Assembly: GCA_025642075.2 (NCBI GenBank)
Contig: JAODUO010000053.1
Span: 288,501-352,500 of the forward strand
DNA length: 64,000 bases
From: Ridgeia piscesae
Taxonomy: Eukaryota > Annelida > Polychaeta > Sabellida > Siboglinidae
Reading direction: 5' to 3'
This document shows positions 13,301-22,300 of the stretch, piece after piece (position 1 is the first letter of the stretch; every line of letters starts with the position of its first letter). Below the pieces are notes generated by a model. That model did not search any database and was not told the origin of the DNA. It worked only from the letters and a program-made list of their open reading frames with translations. A program made the position numbers and the translations under genes.

Positions 13301-16300
13301 TCTGCTGCAATATGGTTTGTTGCTGTTGTTCAGCCTGATGAACTGTAATTTGTTCCACTATTTTTAATTGTTGCTACATTGCTGTCCATTGCTCTAATAA
13401 TGACGTTATCAGTGATACTATTCTGAATGATTCTAACCACTTCTGAGCATTTAGGCATTACGGAAATGCTACTGTAGTCATTAGTATTGTACCCATTTTT
13501 TCAACAACCATAATCAGTAAAAAAACAGTAAAAACCTATTTGCAATTTGAAGGTCAAATGCATTATTTTATTTCAATACAAGTTGCATAAAACCTCCCCG
13601 ACCATTTGGCAGTTTTCTCAAAACGCTAACATCCAATAGGAACCCTGAAACTACTATGCAACCCTTACCAAATGTAGTGTTTTGAAAAAGACAATGGTGT
13701 TATTATTGTTCCCAAAAATTGTCATAGATTAATCCTGGAAAGTTTGCCGCCCCTAATGTAAAGGAGGAAAATATAAATGTCTCCCTCGACACATACACTT
13801 ATTTTGGCTTAAAAACGCACCTGTTTGAACTTGTCAGTGTCGTCAATGAATCCAGTGAGTACACCGAGACTGCAGACTACGGCAGCTCTCACCTCCTCCG
13901 TCTTGTCATCAGACAACATCTGCTGCAGCATCGACAGCACCAGCGAACTCCGAATCTCATTCTGTTACAGTACATCAACTAGCACCATCAGAGGGCAGCA
14001 CAAGTCTTCGCGACATACAAAATGGCACTGTTACAACTGTCTGCCTAAGGTGACAAACATTCACTTCTAAATCAGCTGTGAGTTACAAATTTGCAAGGTA
14101 AAAATAAATTATTTCTACCAATCTTGAACACCTTCCAAGCTACGATTATTATTTTCAAGGATGTAGACCATTTTTGCAATGAACAGCTGTGGCTTTTTTG
14201 AATGATTTACAACTATGGCTATTATCCAGGCACATCTACTGAAATGTGTAGCTTTAGAGTATAATAATAAACTACTCATTAACTAATTAAAGTATTAGTG
14301 AGCAGAACACAACATGAGGAATTAGCTATCCCATTAGAACAATCTGCACACTTCTCGACTTAAACCAGATCCGCATGCATGTTATTCATAAATTTACTGT
14401 TAACGTTATTTTATAATGAATAAGTAGGGTTATTTAGTTAAGTTATTTTTACTTGCCGGCAGATATGGAGTGAGAGCGCCACAGGCTTCGGCTACCAGCA
14501 GTCGCCGCTCAAAGTATTTATGTGTTATCTGAAACAACAGAAAGATACAACTACAGGATATCTAAGACATCTGCAATATGAATTGGTTGTTGGATTAGAA
14601 AATACATGTAGGGATGTATTTATATTAAAAAATAGATAGATTAATTTTACCTGAGAAGTTAAATCAAATTAGCTCTGTTTACACATAATTTCAAATGATA
14701 TCATGTCTGGATGACGGAAATATTTAGTTCCGAAACTTAGTTCCGATATTTTTGATGAATAACTTCTATAATATATGATACATTATGTCGATCTTCAAAT
14801 TTAAAGCCAATTTCAGTTCTCAGATAATCTCATCCCAGAACAGTGAAATTAAATATACCATTAATAATATGTATTTTACAAATGCCATATTCATAAATGT
14901 TTACAGAGTTGAACATAAAACAACAGTACACTCTTGTAATATTTATAGACGTTTTGACATATTTTCTGGCATTAACTGGTTCCCTGAGGCTGAAAGGATC
15001 CCCATAGACCTTGAGACAACCACTAAATATAAAACCAGTTGACTGACCTGTTCCCAGCACTGTGGAAGCAGTTCTGCTTCAGCCCGGGAAGGTCCCACAT
15101 GTTGGGCAAATGCTACACATCCAGTCAGAATCATCTCTCTGACAACAAATTAATGAAAAAAACACTTTAAAAAGACCCGTCATTAGTATGATGATTTTCT
15201 TTCATTTTTGTTTCATTTTACATAATCTTAACAACTGTAGTATCCCTACAGCATGGCAGCCATTTTTACTTGAAAACATCAGACAGACGAAGGGCGGAGT
15301 GACTAAAATGAGACCGGAACATTGTTATGAAATATGTCAAAAAGAACTTGGTTTGGCAAATTTGGAGAATGAGTGGAGTTCAGATGAAAGTTGTTAAAAT
15401 AATGAATGGTTAAAATATTGATAACATATTCTTTATCCACTGAGAAAGATAGAAGGACAAGAGGATGTGAAGTAACATTGGACAAGAAACGGTGTAGATG
15501 TGTAGATAATATATCAGAGAGTATTTATTCTCACAAATACTGTAAATAAATGGAACACATTTTTTGATTGCTAGTAGCAGGAATGTCTGAAAACTAAATC
15601 GACACATAACTCAGAAAGGTCGGGATCTACTGAAAAACGGTTGGACTTTTGATAAGCCAAATGCTTCCTTGTTTAATTGCCAACTGGAGTTAATTTTCTG
15701 GGTGACAGTCATGTTAAATCTTGAAAGAATCTAACACCTGACATTTAAAAATCTTTACAACCTTGTCTTTCCATTATAGCTCTTTAGAACATTGACCCAT
15801 TGTGTCATCAGGAAAGCTGCATATAGATTTTGAGATTCACAAACTGTTTTGTCTAAATAAACCTCCGAGCTTGGTTTCCAATGAATTATATGCAACAGAA
15901 GTTATCTTACACATATAACTCACTAAATGTGGAGGTAATCTTGCCAGGACTAACCTCTGCTCCTTGTCAGGTCGTTTGATGAGATTGAAGAGAATGTTGA
16001 GCAGCTGATCCCTCTGAGTCGAGTCTGGGTGCAGTGTCGCGGCACACAGGATCAGAGGAATGAGTTCCTGCGACACAGAGGAAGACACAGGTGCAACTGA
16101 CACAGGATCAGAGGAATGAGTTCCTGCGACACAGAGGAAGACACAGGTGCAACTGACACAGGATCAGAGGAATGAGTTCCTGCGACACAGAGGAAGACAC
16201 AGGTGCAACTGACACAGGATCAGAGGAATGAGTTCCTGCGACGCAGAGAAAGGAAGACACAGGTGCAACTGACACAGGATCAGAGGAATGAGTTCCTGCG

Positions 16301-19300: not shown

Positions 19301-22300
19301 ATGAGTTCCTGCGACACAGAGGAAGACACAGGTGCAACTGACACAGGATCAGAGGAATGAGTTCCTGCGACACAGAGGAAGACACAGGTGCAACTGACAC
19401 AGGATCAGAGGAATGAGTTCCTGCGACACAGAGGAAGACACAGGTGCAACTGACACAGGATCAGAGGAATGAGTTCCTGCGACACAGGGAAGACACAGGT
19501 GCAACTGACACAGGATCAGAGGAATGAGTTCCTGCGACACAGAAAGACACAGGTGCAACTGACACAGGATCAGAGGAATGAGTTCCTGCGACACAGAGGA
19601 AGACACAGGTGCAACTGACACAGGATCAGAGGAATGAGTTCCTGCGACACAGAGGAAGACACAGGTGCAACTGACACAGGATCAGAGGAATGAGTTCCTG
19701 CGACACAGAGGAAGACACAGGTGCAACTGACACAGGATCAGAGGAATGAGTTCCTGCGACACAGAGGAAGACACAGGTGCAACTGACACAGGATCAGAGG
19801 AATGAGTTCCTGCGACACAGAGGAAGACACAGGTACAACTGACACAGGATCAGAGGAATGAGTTCCTGCGACACAGAGGAAGACACAGGTGCAACTGACA
19901 CAGGATCAGAGGAATGAGTTCCTGCGACACAGAGAAAGGAAGACACAGGTACAACTGACACAGGATCAGAGGAATGAGTTCCTGCGACACAGAGAAAGGA
20001 AGACACAGGTGCAACTGACGCAGGATCAGAGGAATGAGTTCCTGCGACACAGAGAAAGGAAGACACAGGTGCAACTGACACAGGATCAGAGGAATGAGTT
20101 CCTGCGACACAGAGAAAGGAAGACACAGGTGCAACTGACACAGGATCAGAGGAATGAGTTCCTGCGACACAGAGAAAGGAAGACACAGGTGCAACTGACG
20201 CAGGATCAGAGGAATGAGTTCCTGCGATACAGAGAAAGGAAGACACAGGTGCAACTGACACAGGATCAGAGGAATGAGTTCCTGCGACACAGAGAAAGGA
20301 AGACACAGGTGCAACTGACACAGGATCAGAGGAATGAGTTCCTGCGACACAGAGAAAGGAAGACACAGGTGCAACTGACACAGGATCAGAGGAATGAGTT
20401 CCTGCGACACAGAGAAAGGAAGACACAGGTACAACTGATAATAACAAATAATGGATGACTGAGAGTGTTGGCATAGTGGTATTTTGGTGCAGTGGTGCAG
20501 TGGTGCAGTGGTGCAGTGGTGCAGTGGTGCAGTGGAGCAGTGGAGCAGTGGTGCATTGGCTAAAGCTTCAGACTTTCAACTAACAGAACCCAAGTTCAAA
20601 AACTTGTTCAATGTTCAAAATGGCAGTACGTGCCGTTTCAACATTGAACAAGTTCATTCAACTCGCATTGGTCTAGTTCACTCAACTCAAAAAATGAGTG
20701 GTGTATGTTTTAACCCGGAATCTTTCAACAGAAAGTCTTACTGTCTCACCAATGCACCATCGCACTCTATGCACTGAACAATGAACGCTCCCTGCTGTGT
20801 AAACACACACCTCTCGTCTTGCCAGGAGCACATTCGGTACAATGTGCGGCAGACATCGTGCCAGCATAAGAACCACGCGGAACCCACTCGAGTCCGTTAT
20901 CTGGGTCACTTCCGATATGATCCGGTTGTCCTGTGTCACGTGGAATGTTGCATCCAGTAAAGCCTTTTGGAAAGTGGCTGGCATTCTCCTGAAGTCATAG
21001 CACAGGGTAAACGTATGGTGAATTACTTATCACTAAATATTCCTCCTCTATACACTGTAGTTGTAACAATACCACGCCTGGTAAAAGAGGGAAATTATAT
21101 AACATATGGTCGCAATAGGAAATTACCAAGAATATAGAATCACGCAAAGGAAACAGGATTTATTTGGACATTCAAAGCTATGTCAAAACAACCGGCTGCT
21201 CAGGATGCACCACAAACCATTTTATACATTAGTAAAATTTAGTTTATATACATGTCACCCTATTCATCTCACATCGCCACACTCTTAAATAATGTAATAA
21301 TAATTATGTTTCTTAATATAGCATTTCTTATGTAATCAAATGACAATCAAAGTACTTCACATTAAAATGACGTGTTGATTAAATCTAAAATATAAATTAA
21401 TTAAATACATAAACAAAGATCAACAAAATAAGCTAAGATAAAAAAAAATGTATACCTTTGATTCGGGTGCCACTGGAAGTTCTCCGAATTTTTACCTCCA
21501 CTCACAGAAGAGCTCAGCTGTGACGACTGACCAGTGATGTCCTGACTGGGCAGGTCGGTGCCAGCGAGGACGTCTAGCGAGTCTCCCACCTCTTCCCCGT
21601 CCTTCCCCCCCGCCCCTTCTTCAGCCCTATGCCTTCCCTCCATTCTGTGGGTGGGTTCCACCGCGTCTACCTCATCCCCGTTATGCAGGGGTGCCACCCC
21701 TTCATCCCACTCCCCATCCTTTGCTTTTGGATGTCCGGCTGTCTGCCTGGGATCACTTGGAGGCTGTCCATCTGGCTTTTTGCTGGGAGTACAGATGGGA
21801 CTGACCGCTGGAGTGGACGACTTCATTAGTTGCGCATTCTCCACTTGTCTATGACAGAACACAACATTGCACTACAAAGGACACTTCCAACTGATTTAGT
21901 CATGTATTCCAATGTTTGTTCGAACCAATAGAACTGACAACATTTCCAAGTACACTTTACTTTAGATAACCCACATTTGCAATGTTGATTTCCACTTAAA
22001 TCAATTCATTTCCTCAGTGCCACACATATAAAACATCAACACATTTTCAAATCATACATCTTTAACTCAGGCCACTTTGCAATATTCCTATTTCAACACT
22101 GCATTTGTGTTAAATCTTGTTTCAGTAATAAAATATATACAGTAATTACTTCCTTTAGATATGCATATATTGTGAATGTGATTCCAGTAACTACTCTACA
22201 AAATTATCACAAATCATCATTTCAAATTGACACACTTGAACATTAATATTTTTTTATAATACATGAAAAGAAATCTAAATTCAATTAAACCTATAGTTCT

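Follow-up and report, generated by a model that had tools for sequence, protein, structure and literature searches.

How does a gene find its proper splice site when that site has been copied dozens of times with the same sequence on both sides? This question is raised by a 64,000-nucleotide stretch of contig JAODUO010000053.1, hereafter the window, whose minus strand carries a gene that a protein search names RAB11-binding protein RELCH. Within this gene a tandem array of units of 56 or 60 base pairs (bp) spans the boundary between intron 7 and exon 8. Minisatellite duplications of intron/exon boundaries are known from amphioxus as mirages (PMC3087553, PMC3902484). Judged by its sequence, the RELCH array is most likely a real and very large mirage that is spliced at its last acceptor. 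It sets up a natural test of splice-site competition, in which one acceptor has to be chosen from dozens that share their flanks. Because the flanks are the same at all of them, the selecting factor would lie outside the repeated stretch and could be mapped. Provided that splicing at such sites is normal, position outweighs acceptor strength by far. Competition between duplicated splice sites is reportedly the subject of classical work by Reed and Maniatis.

The repeated splice junction of RELCH

Our gene model joins 15 exons from 30912 to 10814 into a single open frame of 810 codons. Four further exons reach position 90 in a separate frame, as the model misses an exon between 10814 and 7307; intron 15 of the model may hide an exon. 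The protein search scored 7989 proteins, 1394 of which passed, and among the best 120 that were listed the best match by E-value comes from Capitella teleta, with 50% identity over the whole query. The metagenome protein P0016 is 55% identical to the RELCH of the window over 77%. We picked 27 rows by hand for a tree, in which annelids, molluscs and a nemertean stand for the lophotrochozoan phyla. The window groups with Capitella, Dimorphilus and four further rows, and a split at 100/98 separates this group from the molluscs, the nemertean and the deuterostomes, amphioxus among them. Dimorphilus is a long branch, and the tree gives no firm branching order within the group. By the best match and the tree the animal is annelid-like, and a fish origin as well as an amphioxus origin were rejected on this basis. 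As a side observation, exon 10 has an apparent GC donor (CCG then GCAAGT, at 14457 on the minus strand).

Tandem Repeats Finder reports the array in several rows that overlap, chiefly with period 56, and cyclic alignment against a unit of 56 bp resolves it into 82 whole units with a partial unit at either end (Table 1). Read on the minus strand, a unit is GAACTCATTCCTCTGATCCTGTGT followed by CAGTTGCACCTGTGTCTTCC(TTTC)TCTGTGTCGCAG. The first part is exactly the first 24 nucleotides (nt) of exon 8, and the rest is the end of intron 7 with its pyrimidine tract and GCAG. There are 63 exact copies of GCAG/GAACTCATTCC (the slash marks the splice site), the final one being the start of exon 8 at 16067, and likewise 63 exact copies of GCAGGAACTCATTCC, the last at 16067. 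An 18-mer spanning the acceptor has 61 matches in the window at no more than 2 mismatches, all within 16057-20408, and none in 100 shuffles. The units continue without a break into exon 8. Two traits of mirages are found here, namely tandem units that cross an intron/exon boundary and are contiguous with the exon, and splice signals that look usable. The assembly, of 628 Mb and 4875 contigs, has a single occurrence of exon 8 itself. The array unit has no match in viral contigs, a set from which records close to the genome of the window were possibly left out.

Most of what the original prediction said about this structure stands. It had described a minisatellite built from a repeated splice acceptor with 24 nt of its exon, formed by expansion of an intron-exon junction, and it had placed the upstream exon at 20811-20988, which is exon 7 of our model. 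The number 9 that it gave to the downstream exon does not agree with the present model, in which this exon is number 8, though one exon was possibly missed. The 60-bp units, which carry TTTC in the pyrimidine tract, are found where it had put them, at the intronward edge, and there is a single further one near the exon at about 16236-16295. The working acceptor belongs to the 56-bp class.

The quality of the sequence differs strongly along the array. The 52 interior units contain 294 deleted bases, with 8 substitutions and 3 insertions; 44 distinct sequences are seen among them and just 10 units are free of deletions. In the 30 edge units there are 3 deletions and 8 substitutions, and their 36 inserted bases are those of the 60-bp class. 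The excess of deletions in the interior looks like a failed or poor long-read consensus, and it makes both the interior sequence and the unit number unreliable; the figure of about 82 is an estimate. Two observations are at odds with error alone. Of the 297 deletions counted over the full array, just 44 lie within the first 19 of the 56 unit positions, and a TTGACC variant, which may be a real subtype of the unit, recurs in 18 units. Could the array as a whole be a product of assembly, inflated from noisy reads around a short true repeat? An interior of deletions with clean islands would agree with this, and one published mirage was misassembled in a draft (PMC3087553, according to the legend of an additional file). 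We nevertheless regard it as very improbable, given that the 30 edge units are clean and fall into distinct classes, that the other minisatellites of at least 300 bp in the window have an indel level of 0-3%, and that comparable arrays cross myosin exon boundaries on other contigs.

Table 1. Positions of the features discussed; coordinates are those of the window except where a contig is given.
Feature	Position	Strand	Details or basis
RELCH exon 7 (178 nt), ends GAG then GTGTGT	20811..20988	-	one of 15 joined exons; protein conserved
RELCH exon 8 (113 nt), immediately preceded by the true acceptor, donor GAG then GTTAGT	15955..16067	-	gene model, homolog alignment
Mirage array (most likely), about 82 units of 56/60 bp	16044..20438	-	repeat finding, unit alignment, 18-mer matches
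60-bp unit class, TTTC in pyrimidine tract	19925..20436	-	unit alignment, units 1-9
Low-quality interior, deletions almost only	16530..19149	-	per-unit difference counts
Second minisatellite, 25 bp x 47	7316..8500	-	ends 8 nt before exon 16 acceptor
Third minisatellite, 33 bp x 58	186..2109	-	ends 13 nt before exon 19 acceptor
36-bp x 102 array, unit TTTTCCCTCTACAG then GTTCAC	L003:2922-6593 (G000:C53:271422-275093)		about 350 nt before acceptor of plus-strand exon
Donor-side mirage, myosin exon	L055 with L065, G000:C404:155347-156184		53-bp unit, 43 exon nt and GTGGGTGTGT
Acceptor-side mirage, myosin exon	L061 with L067, G000:C103:620250-621126		20-bp unit
Borderline donor-side mirage, myosin exon	L059 with L066, G000:C59:202022-202859		units with GCAT, then GTAAGTA

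Acceptor choice and origin of the array

Which of these acceptors is the authentic one? At the exon 7/8 junction all 26 aligned RELCH homologs are free of insertions. This speaks for the last acceptor, and the conservation of the protein across this junction would fit an undisturbed mRNA. When exon 7 is joined to each exact acceptor, the frame stays open from the last one only. All 62 upstream exact acceptors lead to a premature stop before the end of exon 8, with a distance of 97 nt or more to the exon 8/9 junction in each case. The clean stretch 16068-16525 has stops in all three frames, so this result does not depend on the noisy interior. Wrong choices would give transcripts of the type removed by nonsense-mediated decay (NMD) and not protein variants.

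The original prediction had taken the last acceptor as the true one, and we come to the same view, but the many isoforms that it offered as an alternative find no support. Protein isoforms from the array are unlikely, and the idea that alternative acceptors add a repeat-coded peptide to RELCH is scarcely credible. The 60-bp units do remain open among themselves, as had been pointed out, but this property is of no help when all but one of them sit towards the intron, with dozens of 56-bp units between them and the exon, and the stops as well as the uninterrupted junction of the homologs speak against a peptide.

The acceptor itself cannot decide the choice. We built a scoring matrix from the 17 remaining acceptors of the gene model. 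On it the true exon 8 acceptor reaches 1.57 bits, below 13 of these 17 (scored leave-one-out), and of the 144 further AGs within the array, 131 equal or exceed this value. This raises the question whether splicing is noisy, with upstream acceptors often used, the products hidden by NMD and the output of RELCH burdened by the array. The equal scores of the local acceptors would allow it, as would the fact that every wrong choice meets its stop far from the next junction. Published mirages are said, in the passages concerned, to yield regular mRNA, though the globin one has just 3 and 6 units, and we consider noisy splicing of this kind rather unlikely. A related reading would make the array a brake on RELCH that is set by copy number: more decoys would cause more premature stops and NMD, changes of unit number in populations or single cells would tune the gene, and the recurrence of mirages on donor and acceptor sides would make the number of splice-site units a genome-wide source of variation. 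This is a quite unlikely reading in our judgement.

The right-hand side is what differs for the last acceptor, that is, the exon beyond nt 24 and its donor, which matches 7 of 9 consensus positions. Exon definition appears to be the most economical account of the choice of the last acceptor, and the earlier argument that something beyond the repeats favours it is borne out by the scores. An exon enhancer absent from the repeats had been suggested for this role; the count of purine runs of at least 6 (2 in exon 8, none in the array) fits the suggestion and does not demonstrate it. Two other roles for the units were rejected. They are no recursive splice sites (ratchet points), as they contain no AG/GT and read GCAG/GAACTC. 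Nor do they look like micro-exons, the donor-like TGT/GTCAGT matching 5 of 9 consensus positions compared with 6-8 for the donors of exons 1-18.

Taken together, we consider it probable that the array is a mirage which arose by chance duplication of the junction, grew by amplification, and is resolved by exon definition at the last acceptor. The intron before the array ends in TTATTATCAGTTGTACCTGTGTCTTCCTTTCTCTGTGTCGCAG, the exon continues with CCTGTGTGCCGCG, and the unit boundary has one T common to both, as would be expected for a single end-joining event. The founding event may have been a tandem duplication whose range by chance included a single 3' splice junction: as its ends suggest, exon position 24 (CCTGTGT) would have been joined to the intron tail (TCAGTTG) over the shared T, giving the first unit. 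Unequal exchange or slippage might then have amplified the units, which spread as two classes separated by the 4-nt difference in the pyrimidine tract. We can only infer which class came first. Since the working acceptor belongs to the 56-bp class, turnover seems to have run through the functional splice site. In the present gene, exon definition, which we assume for this species, would lead the spliceosome to pair the donor of exon 8 with the acceptor closest to it, and exon sequence beyond nt 24 might help this choice. Any upstream acceptor used by mistake would give a premature-stop transcript that NMD could remove. The last exon copy may also provide the branch site, as CTGAT in the exon copy sits 41 nt before the true acceptor and before each later acceptor. 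No match to the branch-site motif yUnAy is found in the 119 nt before the first array acceptor.

Several points weigh against this account. Purine runs are a crude proxy for enhancers. Matches to yUnAy are common, several other RELCH exons have none in the usual range, and on the way from CTGAT to the acceptor there is a TCAG in each unit, which would need to be skipped. The noise of the interior prevents a reconstruction of the expansion. Finally, stops do not protect every such array. On contig C103, in the acceptor-side myosin array described below, the insert contains a stop for just 3 of the 22 upstream acceptors when the exon is kept in frame, which indicates that the stops in RELCH are luck of sequence and not a rule.

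Known mirages and arrays at myosin exons

Mirages as a kind are already known. New are the RELCH and myosin cases in an annelid-like genome, four in number, from two gene families and on both sides of exons. In amphioxus, where the genes Adh3, TnC, BflGb6, BflGb9 and PGBD5 are named, mirages occur on donor and acceptor sides and many units carry AG or GT signals (PMC3087553, PMC3902484). For Adh3, the data and reverse transcription PCR are described as suggesting that regular splicing is undisturbed, with cryptic use possible, and a route to new introns is proposed (PMC3087553). The PGBD5 paper, which adds TnC and Adh, says in the passages concerned that mirages generate no aberrant mRNAs (PMC3902484). 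By these descriptions the BflGb6 mirage is the closest in build, as it also joins the 3' end of an intron to the 5' part of an exon. It has 6 and 3 units in two haplotypes, compared with about 82 in RELCH, and its units are longer (150-160 bp; those of Adh3 have 10-72 bp). The hosts differ as well, mirages having first been reported from cephalochordates and the RELCH array lying in an annelid-like animal.

Comparable repeats exist in human genes. The 31-bp variable number tandem repeat c.1444_1467+7(16_21) of CBS combines, as its name reads, 24 exon nt with 7 intron nt in 16-21 units, but it spans a donor boundary (PMC2630376). In human paralogs, variable internal tandem repeats are described as minisatellites located at exon-intron boundaries and as a possible source of new introns; unlike the RELCH array they have 30-bp units, a mean of 4 repeats and lie in segmental duplications (PMC2812944). 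Among the matches listed for annelid or RELCH cases, whose titles and abstract beginnings were considered, there is no annelid mirage, and we do not claim that none is in print. Minisatellites are reported from an earthworm metallothionein intron, and the passages concerned draw no link to splice junctions.

A search of the assembly with the myosin head family gave 75 exon matches, of which the best 40 by E-value were examined, except that two on contig C3590 were passed over as duplicates of another match. Arrays cross the boundary at 3 of these 40 exons, once at an acceptor and twice at a donor. The C404 array contains 10.1 units with the donor TTTGAGCAG/GTGGGTGTGT and 10 donors at no more than 2 mismatches. 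The C103 array has 35.5 units with GTTACAG/TACCA and places 22 exact acceptors ahead of an exon starting TACCAAGTG. The third, on C59, extends from the donor with 17.4 units of 25 bp at 75% identity, each with GCAT/GTAAGTACCCC; as only about 4 nt are common to the exon, it is a borderline mirage. There are also near misses, in which an array ends 36 nt before an acceptor (L030) or starts 38, 24 and 26 nt past the end of a match (L039, L048, L056).

Are these more than chance would give? A sample of contig C53, made up of 20 pieces of 10 kb each, contains 40 arrays with a period of at least 10 and a length of at least 100 bp, which cover 23849 bases, or 12% of the 200 kb. Their unit lengths total 1706 bp, and this gives a 0.85% chance that a founding unit covers a given boundary. 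At the 80 myosin match ends, some of which are not exon ends, 3 boundary-spanning arrays are seen compared with 0.68 expected (P = 0.03), or 2 without the borderline C59 case. Including RELCH, which was preselected, 4 are seen at about 117 boundaries compared with 1.0 expected (P = 0.02). Mirages in this genome are about the chance yield of a genome rich in minisatellites, or slightly above it, and we make no claim of a hot spot at junctions.

Other repeats and neighbouring frames

Tandem repeats make up about 22.5% of the window (14411 bases), and 11026 of these bases lie inside the 30.8-kb span of RELCH. Two further minisatellites also end close to acceptors (Table 1). We placed the nine intronic repeats of RELCH of at least 300 bp at random inside their introns. 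At a limit of 15 nt, which was set after inspection of the data, three of the nine end near an acceptor and none near a donor (P = 5e-5); without the junction array it is two of eight (P = 0.001). Limits of 10, 30, 50 and 120 nt give P values of 0.0016, 0.0005, 0.002 and 0.002, or 0.037, 0.004, 0.011 and 0.006 without the junction array, and at 50 nt one repeat is near a donor as well. An exon hidden in intron 15 would weaken the test further. A general bias of arrays towards 3' splice sites finds no support in the myosin sample, in which 2 of 3 spanning arrays and 3 of 4 near misses are on the donor side, and two further RELCH exons downstream of the window adjoin no minisatellite of at least 100 bp. 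For these reasons we do not claim a bias. The 36-bp array 30 kb downstream of RELCH was also considered and rejected as a mirage, as the next exon starts too far on.

The second minisatellite contains 1 AG in 1185 nt, compared with 31 expected from base composition, and the stretch free of AG before the exon 16 acceptor measures 1033 nt, compared with 13-62 for other exons. As the repeat counts as a single event, we offer this as a remark only.

Six neighbouring frames were compared with Pfam, and one of them could be named. The frame 31846-32688 on the plus strand, which adjoins the start of RELCH on the opposite strand, has no Pfam match; presumably it resembles the start of CDT1. The named frame, 40663-41196 on the minus strand, matches DUF4505 (PF14956, E = 2e-55).

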